From Thalassospira sp. MCCC 1A03138 (GTDB lineage Bacteria; Pseudomonadota; Alphaproteobacteria; Rhodospirillales; Thalassospiraceae), in the NCBI RefSeq assembly GCF_002115785.1, contig NZ_JFJY01000004.1, positions 186,001 to 250,000 on the forward strand: a DNA stretch of 64,000 nt. Reading direction: 5' to 3'. The position numbers were made by a program, and so were the translations under genes. Shown piece after piece: positions 2,710 to 11,507 of this stretch. Each line of letters begins with the position of its first letter. The first letter of the stretch is position 1. The notes beneath the pieces were generated by a model that saw only the letters and a program-made list of their open reading frames with translations, was not told where the DNA came from and searched no databases.

Positions 2710-3849
2710 CTATTGCTGCGGCAGGTTCCGCTCGCTTGGCAATTGCAGCATACGGCCCATCAGGTAATCGACATCGTCTGAATCGAATTCGACACCAAGA
2801 TCACCATACTGGGTCAGAACCCGTTCAATCATCCGGCGTGAATAGCGTTCCCGATCACGTTCCCCGCCATCAAGGTCGGTTTCACGCGCAACTTCTATGG
2901 CCGCGCGAATGCCCGGGAAGAAATGTTTGGGCATGTCAGCCTTGTTGTAAATCGCTTCAAGCCCGAACGGGCCGCTATCATGGATCAGAATGCGGGTATT
3001 GATCAGTGACACCCCGGCACGGCGCGCAAGGGCGGCTTCGAAAAAGGCAACATCGCCCATGCAAAGCGCACGCAGGATTAGACCGCTGGTCAGACGGTTG
3101 TTGGTGTGAAGATGTTCAACCAGAAGCTCGACATCGCGTTCTTCCGCGCCATCCCCCAGAAGGCCGATGGTCGCACTTTCCTGCGACTGGGTCATGACCG
3201 CATTCACGATCCCCTCAGGGATGTGGCCGCGCGCAATCAGTTCGGATCGCATCCGGTCAGACACCAGCGTCACCAGCCGTTCGGCAATCGTGATCGGCAG
3301 ATGGTTGCGTTCGATCATCGGCTTTTGGATGCGCTCGTTCTCGCCGAATTCATCCACAACCTTTTGCAGCGAATGTTCGCTGATCTGTGCGCCGTCATTC
3401 GAAATCAGATCGACCATCACGTCTTCATGACCGATATCGACAAGAGTTGCCGAAACGATTTCCGACACATGCGGACGCGATGCGATGGCACGCTGTTTTT
3501 CAACACTGTCGGCATTGTCACCGATAATGTCGACCAGATCCTCGTCATTGAGAACTTCGGAAAATTTCAGGATCGGCAGGGCCACATCATCGACATCGCG
3601 TGCAAGGGTCGCGGCAACATCGTGGGGCACAAGCGGAGTCTGCTTAAGGTTCTTGGCCAGCGCCTTGCGCACACGCACTTCCGCGTCACGCACCATCAGC
3701 CGGAAAATATCCTCGGCAAGAATGCGTTCGCTGTCACTCAGGCTTTCAGCAGAAAATTCACGGCTGATTTTCTCGGCCGTTTCGGCACGATTCTTCCCGG
3801 AAGGATCCTGGATCAGATTGTTAAGATCTTCTTTGGTTATACGCGGCAA
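2710..3849 (-). CDS. DUF2336 domain-containing protein
   Basis: 379-residue soluble protein, rich in helices with HEAT-like periodicity across its length. It matches the alphaproteobacterial DUF2336 family (ERILAEDIFRLMVRDAEVRVRKAL early; LMGRMLQLP at the end). The function of the family is not established. The start codon appears to be TTG: no ATG is in frame nearby, and GGGAG lies 7 bases before the TTG at 3849. It stands alone, divergent from the cytochrome c gene across 266 bp. Confidence 0.8.
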   Translation of the reverse strand: MPRITKEDLNNLIQDPSGKNRAETAEKISREFSAESLSDSERILAEDIFRLMVRDAEVRVRKALAKNLKQTPLVPHDVAATLARDVDDVALPILKFSEVLNDEDLVDIIGDNADSVEKQRAIASRPHVSEIVSATLVDIGHEDVMVDLISNDGAQISEHSLQKVVDEFGENERIQKPMIERNHLPITIAERLVTLVSDRMRSELIARGHIPEGIVNAVMTQSQESATIGLLGDGAEERDVELLVEHLHTNNRLTSGLILRALCMGDVAFFEAALARRAGVSLINTRILIHDSGPFGLEAIYNKADMPKHFFPGIRAAIEVARETDLDGGERDRERYSRRMIERVLTQYGDLGVEFDSDDVDYLMGRMLQLPSERNLPQQ

Positions 3850-4041
3850 TGGAGTTCTCCCGGCACGCTAAGCAATCGGCTGCCAACCATTTGTAATTCT
3901 TTATACACCGTAGGGCCGATTGACTAAACGCAAATTATTCAGTTCCTGCATGTGGTAAATGTCGTGTCGAATTCGGGAAACTCAACAGTAAGCCGATCTT
4001 TTTTAACGAAAAGCGAATTTTTGCTTCTGTTTATGTTTTTC

Positions 4042-4057
4042 GGTTCACTTGTGAACC
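4042..4057. promoter_or_regulatory. 16-bp inverted repeat upstream of the cytochrome c gene
   Basis: GGTTCAC-TT-GTGAACC is a perfect 7-bp palindrome with a 2-bp centre. It lies about 58 bp before the cytochrome c ATG, inside the divergent promoter region shared with the DUF2336 gene. It could be an operator; which protein binds it is unknown. Confidence 0.4.
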
Positions 4058-4115
4058 AACCAACGACACAATGTAGTGGGGACCCTACCACCGCAGACCA
4101 AGAGAGGCCCGCAAT

Positions 4116-4511
4116 ATGAATTGGACCAAAACGCTTACCATCGCCGCCACTCTGGCCGTACTCGGCATGGCACCGGCAATGGCTGGTGATGCCGAAAAAG
4201 GCGAAAAAGTTTTCAAGAAATGCGCTGCCTGCCACAGCATTGAAGCCGGCCAGAACAAGGTCGGCCCATCGCTGGCGGGTGCGTTCGGCGCACAATGTGG
4301 CCATGTCGCCGACTTTAAATACGGCAAAGGCTATCAGGCTGCTTGTGAAAAAGGTTTCACCATCGATGAAGCCTTCCTGGTTGATTATCTTCAGGATCCG
4401 TCAGCCAAGCTTAGCGAAATCTCGGGTTCGAAAGAACGCTCGAAGATGACCTTCAAGCTGAAAAAAGAAGACGAAATTGCCGATGTCATCGAATATCTGA
4501 AAGCGCACTAA
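4116..4511 (+). CDS. Periplasmic c-type cytochrome (cytochrome c2/class I like)
   Basis: 131 residues with a signal peptide cleaved after AMA (about residue 23). There is one haem site, C36-A-A-C39-H40, and a likely axial methionine, M111, in SKMTF. This is the class I layout of small soluble electron carriers. A second pair of cysteines, C61 and C77, lies in the loop between the haem site and the methionine; it could form a disulphide, which is not usual for c2. It is a monocistronic gene with an inverted repeat upstream and a strong terminator downstream. The partner enzyme cannot be told from context. Confidence 0.9.
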   Translation: MNWTKTLTIAATLAVLGMAPAMAGDAEKGEKVFKKCAACHSIEAGQNKVGPSLAGAFGAQCGHVADFKYGKGYQAACEKGFTIDEAFLVDYLQDPSAKLSEISGSKERSKMTFKLKKEDEIADVIEYLKAH

Positions 4512-4536
4512 ACCTTTCGATATCCGGTACCGGAAT

Positions 4537-4572
4537 AAAAAACGGCCAGTGCTTCTGCATTGGCCGTTTTCA
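4537..4572. terminator. Bidirectional terminator between convergent genes
   Basis: The hairpin ACGGCCAGTGC/GCATTGGCCGT (one G-T pair) has a TTCT loop, A-rich 5' and TTTT 3'. It serves the cytochrome gene on plus and the 246-residue gene on minus. Confidence 0.85.
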
Positions 4573-4586
4573 TGCGTGCAAAGATA

Positions 4587-5327
4587 TCACGCTGCGGCGC
4601 GTCGCCGACCAAGTTCCTCGGTGATCGCGCGGATTTGCTCCTCGACCCGGATGTCAATGGTCGATGTCACTTCCAGGTCGCGATCTTCGTAAACATCGCG
4701 GTCAGGATACTTTTCACGCCATTCGTTGATTGCCACATCACGCAGGCGGATCAGCTGTTCGATTTGCGGCCGATACAAAAAGATCATCCCCGATATCCAG
4801 CGATTTACCGGCCAGGATGGTTGCGCATGATCAATGATGAAGTTTTCGAGCATATTGATCACGGTTTCGCCGTCATACCAGACTTCGCCGGTCACCCAGC
4901 GGTTGGTGGTGAACAGACGCTGGGCAAAACCGTATTCATCCATCGATACCGCAACCAGGTGCGACAGCGCGTCATTTGGCCCTTCGGGATAGTCAAATCC
5001 CTCAATCGGTACCGGCTTTGACCCGGACGGCATACCGCGCGGCCGCAGGAAGGTATGGAAATGTCCATGCTCGTTCCAACTGCGCTGTTCGTCTTTGGGA
5101 TGGGCATGATAATAAAACTGGGCGTGCGAATTGCGGTCATACACATCCCCTTCGGGATAATGCGTCCATTCATAAAAAGGCCCCGCCGTCTTGATCAGTT
5201 CACCGACAACATTATCGCCTGTCACCGTCAAGACCCGGTGGCATTCCATAACATCGCGTCCCGCAGTCAGCATCCGTTCAAGCCGTCCGGTCGGAAGCGA
5301 TGTCCAGTCAATTGCAATTCCGGTCAT
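4587..5327 (-). CDS. Conserved protein, DUF6969-like
   Basis: 246-residue soluble protein without signal peptide or membrane helices. It has two histidine-rich stretches, YYHAHP (H74, H76) and EHGHFH (H87, H89, H91), followed by FLRPRGMP. The histidines suggest metal binding, but this is inference. It resembles proteins annotated as DUF6969; that family name is from memory and unchecked. It shares a bidirectional terminator with the cytochrome gene and has no operon partner, so no pathway can be assigned. Confidence 0.6.
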   Translation of the reverse strand: MTGIAIDWTSLPTGRLERMLTAGRDVMECHRVLTVTGDNVVGELIKTAGPFYEWTHYPEGDVYDRNSHAQFYYHAHPKDEQRSWNEHGHFHTFLRPRGMPSGSKPVPIEGFDYPEGPNDALSHLVAVSMDEYGFAQRLFTTNRWVTGEVWYDGETVINMLENFIIDHAQPSWPVNRWISGMIFLYRPQIEQLIRLRDVAINEWREKYPDRDVYEDRDLEVTSTIDIRVEEQIRAITEELGRRRAAA

Positions 5328-5466
5328 TCCAACACCAGTAACCTTGCGATGAGAATCCTATCCGCAGCGGCAGAAATAACCCGTCCATGGCCATGACGGC
5401 CAATTAATCCCGTTCAAGAATTAGTGATTCTGTCACAATGTGCAAGCCTGCTTCGAAAACAGGCCG

Positions 5467-6336
5467 CTATTCATGCATCAACCGAAATCCGATAAGGATA
5501 TGCTGCATATGTTCCGGCCTGCCATGGCGGGCGGCGGGGCGGCAAACACCGCATCCCCGATCATCCCAAGATCCGCCCTTAACAATACGGTATCCGGCTT
5601 GCAAACTGGTGGCCGTCCATTCAAACACCTGCCCCGCCCCGTCATACAGCCCATAAGGCCCCGGTTCGAACTGCCCCACCGGGACGGTATCAAACGGGCC
5701 GCGATCGGCACTGTTCAATTGCAGCGGATCATAAATATTTCCCCAGGGATAGAAAATGCCGTCCGCACCGCGAACCGCCTTCTCCCAATAGATTTCTTCG
5801 GGGATTCGCCACTTGATGCCGGTTTTCAAACTTAGCCAGATGGCATAATCCTGGGCATCACGCCACGACACCAGAACAACCGGATGATTGCCCTTGCCAC
5901 GCGGCGGCTCGCCATTCTGCCACGCAAACGGACGGGTCGCGTCATATCCGTAAATCAGACCAAGACTTTCCCAGTCTTCCTCGCTGATATCAGGCGCTTC
6001 ACGACCGGTATCCCGGACAAAGGCGGCATACTGATCATTGGTGACCGGCGTTTTCATGATGAAATAGTCGGGCAGATAAATGTGCCATTTATCGACTTCA
6101 ACATCGTACCAGCGATTCCGGCGGCTGATGTCATGGCCATAGACCTGCTCATCAATCTGATAGGCATATTGCCGTTCAATCGCATCCGATCCCTGAAAGA
6201 ACCAACCGGCCGGAATTTCCGCCACATCAGCATAGGGTACATCCGCGGACTGCGCCCGCACAGAACCGGGCAACGACATCGCGGCCAAAACGGCCGCAAA
6301 AAGACCGCCGATCATGTGACTCTGCTGTTTTTTCAT
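5467..6336 (-). CDS. Secreted formylglycine-generating-enzyme-fold (SUMF1/FGE-sulfatase) protein
   Basis: 289 residues with a signal peptide (cleavage near AQS, residue 30), so it is probably periplasmic. The FGE-sulfatase fold is recognised from FIMKTPVTNDQYAAF, NHPVVLVSWRDAQDYAIWL, IPEEIYWEKAVRGADG..PWGN and the C-terminal KGGSWDD..GFRL block. The family includes formylglycine-generating enzymes, PvdO and EgtB. Near the end C262 and C265 sit in DRGCGVCRPAARHGRP. True copper FGEs carry an active cysteine pair in about this place with a different spacing, so catalysis of the FGE type is uncertain. It is transcribed away from the Cys-repeat gene at 6673 across a shared 336-bp region. Confidence 0.82.
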   Translation of the reverse strand: MKKQQSHMIGGLFAAVLAAMSLPGSVRAQSADVPYADVAEIPAGWFFQGSDAIERQYAYQIDEQVYGHDISRRNRWYDVEVDKWHIYLPDYFIMKTPVTNDQYAAFVRDTGREAPDISEEDWESLGLIYGYDATRPFAWQNGEPPRGKGNHPVVLVSWRDAQDYAIWLSLKTGIKWRIPEEIYWEKAVRGADGIFYPWGNIYDPLQLNSADRGPFDTVPVGQFEPGPYGLYDGAGQVFEWTATSLQAGYRIVKGGSWDDRGCGVCRPAARHGRPEHMQHILIGFRLMHE

Positions 6337-6672
6337 TGTCTGTTCCGGTCTCCGTGATGGCTGTTCTCACGGTTTATTCAACCGTACGCCATGCTCCGCT
6401 CCCCGTATCCCTGATTTCTTAAATGCGTAAAATCTATCGATTTTTCAATCGTTTTGATACCAAAGCATAAAAAATCAAACATAAATTGTTCGCCACTCAT
6501 TCAACCTTGGGCATCTTTTGACCGCTTCTCTCACACGGCTCTCTCACACAACAGTGAAACCATGTGACGTTCCGGGCGACCTGATTTGGCGCATATTGGC
6601 CTGCATCGGACGAAAAACATTCAACGTCCCTACCGTCAGATCGAAATGAACGCTTAATCAGTGAGGCAATCA
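6337..6672. other. 336-bp divergent promoter region, no gene seen
   Basis: This region separates the FGE-fold gene (minus) from the Cys-repeat gene (plus). The part at 6410-6490 is A/T-rich with runs of A and T. No ORF with a ribosome binding site is seen. AAC and CGTC elements 15 bp apart near 6618-6640 could be an ECF-type promoter for the Cys-repeat gene, but the match is weak. Confidence 0.4.
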
Positions 6673-6993
6673 ATGTCCAAAAAATCCAGCTTCTTCTCCC
6701 AGTCGGCCCTGATCCCCGCGATTGCCGTTGGCGCCGGCCTTGCCATCGCGGCCCCGATGGCAATGGCAGCCCCGCTTCCGACACCGACCGCCGAAGTCGC
6801 GACGTGCACAGCCAATCCTTGCGCGGCCAACCCCTGTGCCGCAAACCCCTGTGCCGCAAACCCGTGCGCGGCCAAAAAGGTCGTCAATCCCTGCAGCCCG
6901 TGCGCAGCCAACCCTTGTGCTGCAAATCCTTGCGCGGCGGCTAACCCCTGCGCTGCCAATCCGTGTGCGGCAAATCCCTGTGCTGCCAAATAA
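6673..6993 (+). CDS. Secreted Cys-repeat protein with tandem Asn-Pro-Cys-Ala-Ala units
   Basis: 106-residue small protein. Residues 1 to about 34 form a signal peptide ending APMAMA. The mature part has a short Pro/Thr linker and then low-complexity repeats: ten NPC units in two blocks split by AKKVVNPCSPC, with 12 cysteines in all. The codons of the repeats differ (AAT or AAC, four Pro codons, TGC or TGT), so the repeat is old and kept at protein level. GAGG lies 7 bases before the ATG at 6673; the upstream GTG at 6661 overlaps that site and is less likely. I do not recognise a named family. Metal binding, or a substrate for Cys modification, are possibilities. It is followed by a strong terminator. 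Confidence 0.8.
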   Translation: MSKKSSFFSQSALIPAIAVGAGLAIAAPMAMAAPLPTPTAEVATCTANPCAANPCAANPCAANPCAAKKVVNPCSPCAANPCAANPCAAANPCAANPCAANPCAAK

Positions 6994-7021
6994 CCGGGCC
7001 GATCCGTCGCCCTGACCATGC

Positions 7022-7056
7022 AAAAGGGGCAGTGCTTTTGGCGCTGCCCCTTTTCA
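7022..7056. terminator. Bidirectional terminator after the Cys-repeat gene
   Basis: The hairpin AAAAGGGGCAG..GC / GC..CTGCCCCTTTT lies between the convergent Cys-repeat gene and the universal stress gene. Confidence 0.87.
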
Positions 7057-7078
7057 TGTCTGTCCGGAACGATAGCAA

Positions 7079-7507
7079 TCAGTCGCGAACCACCATCACC
7101 GAACAATCGGCATGGCGCACAACGCGTGCGGCGTTCGGCCCCAGAAGGTAATCCTTCAATTCGGGGCGGTGTGCCCCAATGACGATCAGATCGCAATTGG
7201 TCTTTTTCGCCATTTTCAGGATCACTTCATAAACCGTCCCCTGGCCCACGATATGCTGAACCTTAAGGTCGGACGGAATATGTTCGGAAACGAACTGGTG
7301 CAGTCTTTCGTTATAGGCATCAAGAACCTTTTTCTCGTAACCCTTGGGGAAAAACTGCCCGACCATCGACATCCCGACCGTGGGAACCACGGTCAGGACA
7401 TGAAGGCGCGCATTGAATGCCTGGGCTTGCTTGATTGCAACCGGAATGGCTTTTTTCCAGGACAGATCGTGATCAAGATCCACTGTAACCAGAATATCCT
7501 TATACAT
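7079..7507 (-). CDS. Universal stress protein (UspA family), TRAP-associated
   Basis: 142 residues covering one Usp domain: MYKDILVTVDLDHD at the start and the nucleotide-site pattern GAHRPELKDYLLGPNAARVV near the end, which corresponds to the ATP-binding G-x2-G-x9-G loop in slightly altered form. AGGAGG lies 9 bases before the ATG. It lies 14 bp after the fused TRAP permease gene. A TRAP-linked Usp, TeaD of Halomonas, is known to regulate the ectoine TRAP transporter TeaABC, so a role in tuning this TAXI transporter is a reasonable inference. Confidence 0.88.
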   Translation of the reverse strand: MYKDILVTVDLDHDLSWKKAIPVAIKQAQAFNARLHVLTVVPTVGMSMVGQFFPKGYEKKVLDAYNERLHQFVSEHIPSDLKVQHIVGQGTVYEVILKMAKKTNCDLIVIGAHRPELKDYLLGPNAARVVRHADCSVMVVRD

Positions 7508-7521
7508 GGACTTGGCCCTCC

Positions 7522-10113
7522 TTAGGCCGCTTCGGCACGACGGCGACGGCGTTGCAATACGATGATCCCGCCCAGCAGAATAAACGCCGGGATAAAGAAC
7601 ACCTCTTTGGGCATGCGGTCGGCTTCGATCTTGATCGCGGTGATTTCAAAGTCGAAATCAAGTCCCGCTTTCTCGGCCGGACCACCAAATACCAGATCAT
7701 CGATAAAGACCTTGCCGTCTTCGTTGCGAACCGCAATGCCCGCATTGTAAAGACGGTCTTCACCCGATGCTTCCGGCCCCAATGGCAACATCACCGATTT
7801 GCTGACTTCGTCGCCTTCAAGACTGATGCCCTCGACATCCAGAAGAATGCTGGTATTGGCGGGCATATCGGCCGCCTTTTCAACAATCTCGGTCGCGGGC
7901 AGGTTTTCATAGGGCGGCTCCAGCAGATCAAGCCAGAAACCCGGACGGAACAGGGTAAAGGCAATCAGCAGAAGTGCCGCACTTTCCCACAGTTTCGACC
8001 GGGTGAAGAAATACCCCATCGTCCCTGCGGCAAAGACCAGCATCGCAACAATCGCGACAAAGATCACCATCACCACTTCAAACGGATGATCAAGCCCGAT
8101 CAGCAGAAGCTGCGTGTTGAACAGGAACAGGAACGGCAGAACGGCGGTACGCATGCTGTAAAAGAACGCGACGAAGCCGGTCTTCATCGGGTCGGCCCCC
8201 GAAACCGCAGCCGCAGCAAAGGATGCCAGACCAACCGGTGGCGTCACATCGGCCATGATGCCGAAATAGAACACGAACAGATGCACCGCAATCAACGGCA
8301 CGATCAGGCCGTTCGCAGCCCCCAGTTCAACAATCACCGGTGCCATCAGGCTCGACACCACGATATAGTTCGCCGTGGTCGGCAAGCCCATGCCAAGGAT
8401 CAGGCTGATGATCGCGGTAAAGATCAGGATCAGCATCAGATTGCCGCCCGAAATCAGTTCAACGAATTCGACCATCACCTGACCGATCCCGGTCAGCGAC
8501 ACCGTACCCACGATGATACCGGCCGCCGCCGTCGCGACCCCGATCCCGATCATGTTGCGCGCCCCGGTGGCAAAACCGTCAATCACATCGGCAATGCCTT
8601 CCTTCACACTGGCCATATAGTCCGGCTGCTTGCGGAAGAACGCCTTGACCGGACGCTGGGTCAGCATGATGAACAGCATCAGAACCGTCGCCCAGAAGGC
8701 CGACAATCCGGGTGATTTCAACTCGATCATCAGGAACCAGACCAGAACCACGACCGGCAGCAGATAATGCAGGCCGGACTTGGCGGTTTCGCCCAGTGCC
8801 GGAAGCTCCAGCACCGGCTTGTTGGGATCATCCAGTTCAAGATCAGGATATTTCGCCGCATAATACAGACCGGCAAAATAGATCGCGGCACATTCGACCG
8901 CGACAATCCAGCCCACCGCGTTACCGAATATCTGTTTCTGGAAATTGATCGCGTAGTAAATCACACCCGCAAGAATAACCAGCGACAGCACGAACAGAAG
9001 CGAACGCATCAGCACTTGCTGCACGGTGGATGTCTGACGTTTCGGCAGGCCCTTCATATCGGCCTTAAGCGCCTCAAGATGAACGATATAAATCAGCGCG
9101 ATATAGGAAATCGTCGCCGGCAGGAAGGCATGCTTGATGACTTCCGGATAGGGAATACCGACATATTCCACCATCAAAAAGGCCGCAGCCCCCATGACCG
9201 GCGGCATGATCTGCCCGTTGACCGACGATGCGACTTCGACCGCACCGGCCTTCTCGCCCGAGAAACCGACACGCTTCATCAACGGGATGGTAAAGGTCCC
9301 GGTCGTCACCACATTGGCAATCGAGGAGCCTGAAATAAGCCCGGTCATCGCCGATGCCAGAACTGCAGCCTTTGCCGGACCGCCACGCATGTGACCAAGG
9401 GCTGCAAACGCCACCTTGATGAAATAGTTGCCAGCCCCGGCTTTATCGAGCAACGAGCCAAACAGCACAAACAGGAACACGAAGCTGGTCGAAACGCCAA
9501 GCGCAATCCCGAACACGCCTTCGGTCGTGATCCACTGATGCGACATCGCCTTGGAGAAGCTTGCACCCGCCCATTGCAGGACATCGGGCACCCACGGCGC
9601 ATTGCCAAAGAAAACATAGGCAAGGAACACCATCGCCACGACCATAAGGGGCGGGCCAAGTGCGCGGCGCGTTGCTTCAAGCAACAGCACCAGACCGGCA
9701 CCGGCAACCACAAGATCCTGCGTGATCGGCAAGCCCGGACGCGATGACAGCTCGCGGTAGAAAATAAAGATATAAAGGGCACAGAATGCCCCGGCAGCCG
9801 CCAGGACCCAGTCAAAAACCGGAATATAACTTCGCGGTGAATTCTTGAAAGCCGGATAGGCCAGAAACGCCAGGAACACGGCAAAAGCCAGATGGATCGA
9901 CCGTGCTTCGGTCGAATTGAAAACCCCAAAACTGACAATATAGGGCAGTGGCGATGCCAGCCACAGCTGGAACAGCGACCAGGCCACGGCAACATACAGC
10001 AAAATTTTTGCCGTCATGCCGGTCGGCTGGCGCGCGCCTGTATCATTTTCTGCGATCAGATCCTGAAGATCCTGGTCCGATGGACCCTGTGTCGCGCTTT
10101 TATCGTCGGTCAT
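7522..10113 (-). CDS. TRAP transporter fused permease (4TM/12TM) with C-terminal DUF3394 domain
   Basis: 863 residues when started at the ATG at 10113, which has GGGAG about 8 bases upstream; a longer frame back to 10194 lacks a site. The first third is the DctQ-like part with four helices. The rest is the DctM-like part with VSTSFVFLFVLFGSLLDKAGAGN, ASAMTGLISGSSIANVVTTG and GMGLPTTANYIVVSSLMAPV. After the last channel helices comes a periplasmic PDZ-like DUF3394 segment with a final hydrophobic helix and an Arg-rich tail. This fused form works with TAXI-type binding proteins; such a gene lies just upstream in the transcription direction (10323-11300). Confidence 0.95.
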   Translation of the reverse strand: MTDDKSATQGPSDQDLQDLIAENDTGARQPTGMTAKILLYVAVAWSLFQLWLASPLPYIVSFGVFNSTEARSIHLAFAVFLAFLAYPAFKNSPRSYIPVFDWVLAAAGAFCALYIFIFYRELSSRPGLPITQDLVVAGAGLVLLLEATRRALGPPLMVVAMVFLAYVFFGNAPWVPDVLQWAGASFSKAMSHQWITTEGVFGIALGVSTSFVFLFVLFGSLLDKAGAGNYFIKVAFAALGHMRGGPAKAAVLASAMTGLISGSSIANVVTTGTFTIPLMKRVGFSGEKAGAVEVASSVNGQIMPPVMGAAAFLMVEYVGIPYPEVIKHAFLPATISYIALIYIVHLEALKADMKGLPKRQTSTVQQVLMRSLLFVLSLVILAGVIYYAINFQKQIFGNAVGWIVAVECAAIYFAGLYYAAKYPDLELDDPNKPVLELPALGETAKSGLHYLLPVVVLVWFLMIELKSPGLSAFWATVLMLFIMLTQRPVKAFFRKQPDYMASVKEGIADVIDGFATGARNMIGIGVATAAAGIIVGTVSLTGIGQVMVEFVELISGGNLMLILIFTAIISLILGMGLPTTANYIVVSSLMAPVIVELGAANGLIVPLIAVHLFVFYFGIMADVTPPVGLASFAAAAVSGADPMKTGFVAFFYSMRTAVLPFLFLFNTQLLLIGLDHPFEVVMVIFVAIVAMLVFAAGTMGYFFTRSKLWESAALLLIAFTLFRPGFWLDLLEPPYENLPATEIVEKAADMPANTSILLDVEGISLEGDEVSKSVMLPLGPEASGEDRLYNAGIAVRNEDGKVFIDDLVFGGPAEKAGLDFDFEITAIKIEADRMPKEVFFIPAFILLGGIIVLQRRRRRAEAA

Positions 10114-10280
10114 TGCAAACTCCCGGTCTGAACGCGGTTTCTGTTTCGGGTGGCCCAAACCAATAGCCCAGAAACAAAAAACCTCCGTCGACACTTACCC
10201 GGTCGCCCACGGAGCATATCGGCACATCATCGTGCGCCATTTTGATCAAATTTTTTTAAGATGCCCGCAGGACGGAAGAA

Positions 10281-10316
10281 AACAAAACGGGAGGCACGCC
10301 GTGCCTCCCGTTTCAA
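10281..10316 (-). terminator. Terminator after the TAXI binding-protein gene
   Basis: A 13-bp perfect stem AAACGGGAGGCAC/GTGCCTCCCGTTT has a three-base loop and then TTTTGTTTT on the minus strand. It should limit read-through into the permease gene, as often seen when a binding protein is made in excess. Confidence 0.85.
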
Positions 10317-10322
10317 CCTGTC

Positions 10323-11300
10323 TTACATCAGGCCAGCTTCTTTGAAGTATTTGACAGCGCCGTCATGCAGCGGTGCCGAAAGGCCGTCTTTGACCATTTC
10401 TTCTTTTTTGAGGATCGCAAAAGCCGGGTGCAGCTTTTTGAAATCGTCAAAGTTTTCAAAGACTGCTTTGACAACATTGTAAACGACGTCCGCATCGGTT
10501 GCGGTCGATGAAACGAAGGTCGCGCCAACACCGAAGGTTTTCACGTCTTCCGGGTTACCGCGATACATGCCGCCCGGAATGGTGGCAACACGGTAATACG
10601 GGTTATCGGCAACCAGTTTGTCGATTTCCGGACCGGCAACTTCCACCAGAACAGAATCACAGGAAGATACAGCTTCCTGAATCGAACCGGACGGATGACC
10701 AACGACATAAAGCATCGCATCGATCTTGTTATCGCAAAGCGCCTGCGACTGTTCAGCCGGCTTCAGCTCGGATGCCAGTGCGAAATCGTCAAGGGTCCAG
10801 CCCTTGGCGTTCATCACGATTTCCATGGTGTCGCGGCTACCCGAACCCGGGTTACCGATATTGACACGTTTGCCTTTAAGGTCATCAAAGGTTTTGATGC
10901 CGGAATCAGCGCGGGCAACAATGGTGAACGGCTCTGGATGGATCGAGAAGACAGCACGCAGTTCCGGGAACGGGCCGACGTCTTTGAATGCTTTTTCACC
11001 ATTCAGGGCATAGTACTGAACGTCAGACTGGGCAACGCCAAGATCCAGCTCGCCCGAACGAATGGTGTTGATGTTGTAGGACGAACCACCAGTGGACTCG
11101 ACCGAGCAACGAATGCCATGCTCTTTACGGTCTTTGTTCACAAGACGGCAGATTGCACCACCGGTCGGATAGTAAACGCCCGTCACGCCACCGGTACCGA
11201 TGGTGATAAAACGGTTTTCCTGTGCCGATGCCTGTCCGGCGAACAGCGACGCACCTGCCAAGGTGGCAATGGCACCCGCTACAGCAATAAGTTTCTTCAT
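10323..11300 (-). CDS. TAXI family TRAP transporter solute-binding protein
   Basis: 325 residues from the ATG at 11300 (AGGGAG about 10 bases upstream). The signal peptide [14 protein letters not shown].. is cleaved after ASA. TAXI hallmarks are [20 protein letters not shown] at the mature N-terminus, [24 protein letters not shown], and [24 protein letters not shown] proteins bind carboxylate substrates such as glutamate or 2-oxo acids; the ligand here is not known. Its neighbours are the fused permease downstream and the BKACE, aminotransferase and RpiR genes upstream, all on the minus strand, which points to a catabolic unit. Confidence 0.95.
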
Positions 11301-11507
11301 CAGGATTAGCTCCCTATTACACCCTGTTATAAAGTTTTCAACCACACCGCGAGGATGCGACGGAAAAACATGGAAACATCAGATAAATCAGATGTTTCAG
11401 CGAGGGGATTATAATGACGAGCCTCAAGAATTGAAACCCTATAACCCCGAAACCCCCTGATACTTTTATGTCAGGTAACCAGTCTGTTTTCATTGGCGCA
11501 CCACAGT

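Follow-up and report, generated by a model that had tools for sequence, protein, structure and literature searches.

A stretch of 64,000 nucleotides from the genome of Thalassospira sp. MCCC 1A03138 (contig NZ_JFJY01000004.1, positions 186,001 to 250,000; hereafter the window, whose own numbering is used for its features) carries a gene for an exported protein made of Asn-Pro-Cys (NPC) repeats, a divergently transcribed gene for an exported protein with the fold of formylglycine-generating enzyme (FGE), and a gene of the DUF6969 family. The locus is one version of a three-gene module that consists of an NPC array, the His-rich protein DUF6969 and, in some lineages only, the FGE-fold protein, and we regard the linkage of these genes as firmly established. 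What the module does is a more tentative matter. Our best reading, which we put forward as a possibility, is that the NPC protein is an array of thiols, exported to handle sulfane sulfur together with partner proteins dedicated to it. The main rivals are copper buffering and a modification like that of ribosomally synthesized and post-translationally modified peptides (RiPPs); both may overlap with the sulfur reading, so the odds attached to the several readings need not sum to one.

Genomic linkage of the NPC, DUF6969 and FGE-fold genes

In a sample of 385 alphaproteobacterial genomes, DUF6969 was found in 90, NPC arrays (at least two pattern hits) in 43 and an FGE-fold protein of the window type in 32. 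Dropping G290 left 42 NPC genomes; its locus (L200, G290:C4:45027-45107) is a tandem repeat of 18 bp that looks like the NPC pattern and has a stop codon inside, a non-coding satellite that was not counted. DUF6969 was present in 40 of the 42 NPC genomes (Fisher 1e-26; exceptions G066 and G353) and in 30 of the 32 FGE genomes (Fisher 5e-19; exceptions G099 and G182). When the genomes were collapsed into 173 families, counted from list codes, it was present in 24 of 25 NPC families and 18 of 19 FGE families. These counts make DUF6969, a third member of the module that the original prediction had overlooked, the commoner partner, and the FGE-fold protein an accessory. Among the genomes with DUF6969, FGE and NPC nevertheless co-occur, 21 genomes being shared between the 30 with FGE and the 40 with NPC (p 0.0006). 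NPC and DUF6969 also occur together in genomes where the genes lie on separate contigs or far apart (G087, G140, G392). In a wider draw from the phylum, 11 of 299 genomes had DUF6969, four of them outside Alphaproteobacteria and probably Gammaproteobacteria. The family is also found on plasmids of Sinorhizobium, Azospirillum and Burkholderia glumae.

Within Thalassospira, all 29 genomes surveyed have the window-type FGE with DUF6969 adjoining it, and a regular expression found an NPC gene within 1.5 kb of the FGE gene in 23. Among the six genomes negative by this pattern, G023 has NPC pieces at the same place, and G020, G024, G026 and G027 have weaker NPC-like matches elsewhere in the genome (E 2e-6 to 2e-3), the match in G024 being a frame of 161 residues in which 16 NPC-like units were counted. 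With a pattern stricter in its spacing, no arrays were found in G011, G020, G024, G026 and G027.

The layout of the genes was compared across 115 chosen loci, of which 27 hold both NPC and FGE. Eleven of the 27 are from Thalassospira and 16 from elsewhere, these 16 including three copies of one locus (L062, L176 and L177). The two genes are on opposite strands in all 27 loci, and the NPC array lies no more than 492 bp from the FGE match in 26, the distance being 1352 bp in L154. The genes are thus neighbours in relatives, the point on which the original prediction had staked its refutation. DUF6969 could be placed in 26 of these loci; it shares the strand of FGE in 20 and that of NPC in six (the three copies together with L063, L160 and L189). 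Because DUF6969 changes sides while NPC and FGE are always opposed, the divergent NPC and FGE layout outlives rearrangement. NPC arrays also adjoin DUF6969 where there is no FGE gene. A survey of the best 80 of at least 566 confirmed DUF6969 loci (14 of the 80 from Thalassospira; flanks up to 10 kb, some of them short) found 21 loci with all three genes and four with DUF6969 and NPC.

Several observations weigh against so close a connection. The Thalassospira genome G011 has FGE and DUF6969, and no NPC array was found in it. Among the same best 80 loci, 30 have DUF6969 and FGE with no NPC in the fetched flank, and 25 have DUF6969 with neither gene in the fetched flank. Genome G182 has FGE and two NPC genes, and no DUF6969 was found in the genome; its 4229-bp contig (L243) holds the two NPC genes, one short and one long, and an FGE gene that runs to the contig end. 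The NPC pattern missed both G182 genes and therefore undercounts. The Fisher tests ignore descent, and when independent pairs were drawn from a 90-row tree of DUF6969, 5 to 8 were usable, too few to be decisive; on average the second trait changed in the same direction in 1.3 to 1.5 of them and in the opposite direction in 0.3 to 0.4. This test omitted 12 short-flank loci, such loci being kept only when they showed both genes, a choice biased towards the pair; it also omitted L176 and L177 as copies of the L062 locus, and some short NPC proteins (those of L254 and L255) fell below what the regular expression detects. The pairing of FGE with NPC that had been proposed from their position is therefore upheld in part: it persists outside Thalassospira with an unchanging divergent layout, whereas FGE is not the main partner of the NPC gene, and FGE with DUF6969 persists without NPC in those 30 flanks and, by the regular expression, in six of the 29 Thalassospira genomes.

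An old synteny, in which FGE, DUF6969, a tripartite ATP-independent periplasmic (TRAP) transporter and DUF2336 stay together by descent and NPC is there by chance, might account for some of these counts. Of 74 loci around DUF6969, 32 have a homologue of the TRAP permease and 35 one of DUF2336, with or without NPC (both neighbour families are named after the window's own genes), and many loci are without NPC. This explanation seems to us quite improbable, as NPC and DUF6969 genes also adjoin each other in differently ordered loci, among them loci beyond the class and loci that lack the TRAP genes, and co-occur genome-wide despite separation by contig or distance. We also considered that a different Cys-rich partner might take the place of the NPC protein. 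A scan of 36 chosen FGE and DUF6969 loci without NPC for other dense-Cys genes gave off-frame noise only, among the output examined, with no conserved gene, and this candidate was rejected.

The three proteins of the window locus

The NPC gene (6673-6993, + strand; open reading frame list and translation) encodes a 106-residue protein with 12 Cys, in whose translation 10 NPC units were counted, as the original prediction had described. We took the ATG at 6673 as the start; the open reading frame list begins at an upstream GTG at 6661. By inspection, the first 32 residues (6673-6768) are a signal peptide of typical Sec type ending in APMAMA. The array of 10 units (6814-6981, + strand) has spacers of the types AA, AAA, AAKKVV and AA-SPC. 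Codon alignments of the mature region with 22 Thalassospira relatives indicate purifying selection, with mostly many synonymous and few replacement differences: 40 to 0 for L049, 31 to 1 for L033 and 36 to 1 for L035. L034 is near-identical (2 synonymous, 1 non-synonymous), and L054 is the richest in replacements (36.5 synonymous, 13.5 non-synonymous). The number of units varies from 8 to 10 per protein and the spacers vary slightly, and the constraint covers the entire NPCAA unit, that is Asn, Pro and Ala as well as Cys. The NPC repeat protein is a genuine gene product, and its repeats are preserved at the protein level.

The window NPC protein matched no Pfam family at E 1, which includes DUF2282, the Buf1 bufferin family, and gave no PHROG or PADLOC match; it matched none of the Sox carrier families in Pfam and NCBIfam, and the CxPxR motif is absent from it. 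The 'Cys-every-fifth' RiPP CefA (NF038108) was rejected as a relative, the match being 14.8 bits (E 0.02) and below the cut-off of 30. Since NPC arrays, fused haem domains aside, match no family model, annotation passes over them.

The divergent intergenic region between the NPC and FGE genes (6337-6672, 336 bp) was aligned over 23 Thalassospira sequences. It contains a conserved block 5' of the NPC gene (6544-6569, + strand), the core of which, CAGTGAAAC[C/T]ATGTGACG, is found in 22 of the 23. This core has one match without mismatches in the window's own genome and 13 more sites at 2 or 3 mismatches; given the single exact match, no regulon is shown, and this idea was set aside.

The FGE-fold gene (5467-6336, - strand), 336 bp away from the NPC gene, encodes a 289-residue protein of the SUMF1/EgtB/PvdO superfamily (PF03781, 133.4 bits against a cut-off of 23.3) with a signal peptide of about 28 residues by inspection (6253-6336, - strand). 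The prediction of a divergent, exported FGE-fold protein is borne out, as is that of export for both proteins, each of which has a signal peptide by inspection. The AlphaFold2 model (mean predicted local distance difference test, pLDDT, 80.7) aligned in VIA with S. coelicolor FGE (Z 21.7, root-mean-square deviation (rmsd) 3.0, 217 residues), ToxD (Z 21.6, rmsd 2.8, 226 residues), SUMF2 (Z 20.5, rmsd 3.1, 214 residues) and PorK (Z 22.0, rmsd 2.5, 221 residues). The protein scored far below the equivalog cut-offs of EgtB (54.2 bits of 360), SenA (47.8 of 420), OvoA (30.7 of 400), PvdO (56.4 of 500) and GldK (59.1 of 350). A single PHROG match was to a family named 'kinase'; with this lone match and no PADLOC match, a phage or defence role was rejected.

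According to passages of PMC4505483, the FGE active site has the Cys pair C272/C277 (C336/C341 in the human enzyme), the enzyme depends on copper and its substrate motif is CxPxR. The atypical Cys spacing remarked on in the original prediction can now be described more sharply. In an orthologue alignment the window protein has an invariant C262-G-V/I-C265 motif (5542-5553, - strand), and C262, G263, C265 and R266 are invariant across the 23 aligned orthologues. C262 aligns with the second active-site Cys, taken as C277 of the S. coelicolor enzyme, while the first, C272, maps to a two-residue stretch that is missing here, and C265 is additional. In the model, residues 261-265, which make up the CxxC stretch, have a pLDDT under 50. 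With C272 missing and C265 additional, the protein has an FGE-like fold and yet falls outside the sulfatase-maturing family by its active-site Cys.

That the protein is an ordinary sulfatase-maturing FGE and stands beside NPC incidentally is hardly credible to us. It is the sole PF03781 match in its genome, which has one sulfatase with a CAPGR motif (L277); this sulfatase has no signal peptide by inspection and would be missed by an exported enzyme. The first active-site Cys is missing and the CxxC is new; two other Thalassospira genomes (L240 and L241) carry a separate C-x4-C FGE-fold protein beside a sulfatase; and DUF6969 accompanies the window-type FGE in 30 of 32 genomes. The sulfatases beside these extra FGE-fold proteins belong to PF00884 (L240 6606-10405, L241 4184-6905); the one in L240 has a CTPGR motif, and CxPxR is absent in L241.

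The DUF6969 gene (4587-5327, - strand) lies 139 bp beyond the 3' end of the FGE gene and has the same orientation. It encodes 246 residues with no signal peptide seen, matches PF22308 at 282.9 bits (cut-off 27) and is up to 95% identical to Thalassospira homologues. A His-rich segment, H74-x-H76 ... E86-H87-G88-H89-F-H91 (5055-5108, - strand), is a candidate metal site, and H56, H74, H76, E86, H89, H91 and H123 are invariant in 27 sequences. The AlphaFold2 model (pLDDT 89.3, poor near residues 51-60) places three invariant segments within or next to strands 69-75, 88-94 and 122-129; five invariant His lie on a small sheet or next to it. This arrangement in the model fits a metal site, and DUF6969 is probably a metalloenzyme. 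Foldseek found nothing for the model at E 0.001 or better, the top VIA match was weak (Z 2.6, 91 residues, rmsd 5.8), and a search of the PDB by sequence gave one chain only, at E 0.8; the lack of a match does not by itself prove that the fold is new.

Proposed sulfur handling and its alternatives

We suggest that the NPC thiols carry sulfane sulfur because NPC genes are repeatedly linked to sulfur transport genes, rhodanese, SoxA/TsdA-like domains and, in one lineage, SoxC. YeeE/YedE transporters were found in 7 of the 39 loci that had been gathered around NPC genes (by PF04143 in L063, L072 and L075, the remainder by BLAST cluster), against a background of 12 matches of at least 130 bits in 58 genomes, 26 of which had any match. 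Two related genomes outside Alphaproteobacteria (L254 5580-8891, L255 5300-8614) have the gene order YeeE half, YeeE half, NPC (77 residues), DUF6969, rhodanese and an ArsR-like regulator. The best NCBIfam match of the L254 regulator, a metalloregulator ArsR, is BigR, under cut-off. SoxC (603.9 bits, over cut-off) is encoded about 3 kb further on in L254, and the equivalent position in L255 has a molybdopterin enzyme of the same Pfam make-up. In genome G659, YeeE is followed in turn by a small Cys protein, DUF6969 and rhodanese. The genome from which the window comes has just one full-length YeeE gene, and its second NPC gene (L066 8265-8642, C1) adjoins it. In three genomes of one genus (L224 was scanned), a nitrite/sulfite reductase gene lies 1.6-1.8 kb from an NPC paralogue. 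NPC arrays are also found fused to haem domains, namely P460 (PF16694, over cut-off in L130, L184 and L220, just under in L230) and a SoxA/TsdA-type cytochrome (PF21342, over cut-off in L057 and L252).

In the mechanism that we propose, the NPC array would be exported as a flexible row of thiols, and the periplasmic protein would carry or buffer sulfane sulfur (persulfide or thiosulfonate) on its many thiol sites, a job like that of SoxYZ. Fused haem domains of the P460 or SoxA/TsdA-like type might oxidise the thiols or load sulfur onto them, and the YeeE/YedE and rhodanese partners might hand sulfur on. YeeE-like SoxT proteins have been proposed as sulfur importers in Hyphomicrobium (PMC11582611). 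Outside, the FGE-fold protein would act on NPC Cys, probably by copper or redox chemistry at its CxxC, which may bind Cu(I) or close into a disulfide. DUF6969, being cytoplasmic, would act on the NPC precursor before export or on sulfur cargo inside. A larger claim is that NPC proteins form a new class of exported multi-site sulfur carriers, matured inside by DUF6969 as a new metalloenzyme family and processed outside by an FGE-fold enzyme devoted to the Cys repeats, as a Sox-independent counterpart of the bufferins in Alphaproteobacteria and some other Pseudomonadota; this we think decidedly unlikely at present.

A number of findings speak against sulfur handling. The window locus itself has no adjacent sulfur gene, its neighbours being a TRAP transporter, a universal stress protein (USP), a cytochrome c and DUF2336. 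The SoxA/TsdA-like fused domains also match the di-haem peroxidase MauG over cut-off and reach 31.4 bits of a cut-off of 110 with the SoxA equivalog. The YeeE halves resemble PmpAB, which passages of PMC11582611 judge unrelated to sulfur oxidation in Hyphomicrobium. The gene order in Skermanella looks metal-like: DUF6969, NPC, DUF302, sigma-70 and an NrsF-like fragment (NrsF under cut-off). Sigma-70 genes also lie near two further DUF6969 genes, as in bufferin clusters.

The Skermanella neighbours are among the evidence for a copper or soft-metal buffer, in which the NPC protein is a periplasmic Cu(I) thiol array resembling bufferins or metallothioneins, and the FGE-fold protein is a cuproprotein or a copper-dependent partner. 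Twelve exported thiols are expected to bind Cu(I) by general chemistry. FGE is itself a copper enzyme in the passages of PMC4505483, and passages of PMC12452194 report a bufferin fusion of the form Buf1|Cytochrom_C|FGE-sulfatase. Among the recurring neighbour families near NPC or DUF6969 genes we recognised by eye no copper exporter, CueR, Cop or MNIO gene, a weak argument with most neighbours unscanned; a Pfam scan found no MNIO among six window genes from 2710 to 7507, other loci not having been scanned gene by gene. The recurring neighbours are sulfur genes instead, and the constraint on Asn, Pro and Ala besides Cys goes beyond the needs of a simple metal supply. The metal buffer of the original prediction is accordingly a possibility, on the unlikely side, with the neighbourhoods (YeeE/YedE, rhodanese, SoxC, SoxA/TsdA-like fusion) favouring sulfur over copper.

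That same constraint on the whole NPCAA unit is what would be expected of a recognition motif. DUF6969 inside, the FGE-fold enzyme outside, or both might then modify the repeat Cys in a RiPP-like manner to give the active form, as MNIO does for bufferins. The precursor has an export signal and strict repeats, it is closely linked to a His-rich cytoplasmic protein, and its divergence from the exported FGE-fold protein is fixed. Set against these features, CxPxR is absent from the repeats, DUF6969 is without a fold match, and FGE-fold proteins can be non-catalytic, as with PorK, a ring-complex protein by its structure title. The role of PorK is structural. We consider such modification rather unlikely on the whole, and the specific proposal that the FGE-fold enzyme modifies the repeats was unsupported: CxPxR does not occur in the repeats, and of the two active-site Cys of FGE the enzyme has only one.

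Other genes recur in these neighbourhoods. In the window, the module is surrounded (2710-11345) by genes for a TRAP permease (PF06808), a binding protein (PF16868), USP, cytochrome c and DUF2336. The cytochrome (4116-4511, + strand; PF00034) is an exported c-type protein with a homologue in 8 of 39 loci around NPC genes, and the G182 contig also encodes a c-type cytochrome, by eye. L075 (5226-8377) and L076 have a second NPC-array protein next to YeeE/YedE, and the L075 row also holds a rhodanese. L062 encodes an exported 183-residue protein (9364-9912) whose C-terminal end is cupredoxin-like by eye; it has no Pfam match and weak NCBIfam EfeO matches far under cut-off, and relatives lie near NPC in L160, L189 and L234. 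DUF3179 proteins recur near the genes for NPC-haem fusions (L220-L223, L233 and L252), with the family confirmed in L222 and L252 and the others assigned by BLAST cluster.

Comparison with known systems

The open-licence PubMed Central literature has no mention of DUF6969 or PF22308 and, judged by listings, nothing fitting on an NPC and FGE pairing or system. The tie to DUF6969 and to a CxxC FGE-fold protein makes NPC arrays a testable system. If they are sulfane-sulfur carriers, they would be a periplasmic carrier unrelated to SoxYZ that is present also in a heterotrophic marine genus; if they are copper-binding or modified, they would add new partner families to the bufferin-like world. Under either reading DUF6969, which has a good model with no fold match found, gains a biological context.

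The kind of system, an exported Cys-rich protein with dedicated partners, is already known from bufferins; the partners and the repeat differ here. Passages of PMC12452194 describe bufferins as MNIO-modified, copper-chelating exported Cys proteins, and the Buf1 clusters described there resemble the Skermanella NPC locus in their sigma-70/NrsF genes. The NPC system has in common with them an exported Cys-rich precursor with dedicated enzymes alongside. Unlike bufferins, the NPC protein has no DUF2282 match, is made of simple NPC repeats and is partnered by DUF6969 and the FGE-fold protein.

SoxYZ carries its sulfur on one swinging-arm Cys. The likeness to SoxYZ lies in the proposed role only, a periplasmic Cys bearing sulfane sulfur, while that to SoxAX/TsdA and SoxT (YeeE) lies in the SoxA/TsdA-like haem domains and YeeE-like transporters that accompany NPC arrays. 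In contrast to SoxYZ, the NPC protein has no Sox family match, has many Cys and has DUF6969 and FGE partners. Metallothionein-like arrays share with NPC a density of Cys able to hold metal or sulfane sulfur, the latter being reported for MT-3 (PMC12618007); unlike metallothioneins, the NPC protein is exported, bacterial, built of NPC units, accompanied by partner genes and without a Pfam match.

NirV, an FGE-fold neighbour of nirK, was considered as a parallel from the literature only and set aside. The window FGE-fold protein has a fold in common with FGE (SUMF1), ToxD, PvdO, EgtB/OvoA/SenA and PorK/GldK along the greater part of its length (VIA Z about 15-22), and differs from FGE in having an invariant CxxC in place of the usual pair, the first active-site Cys being absent.

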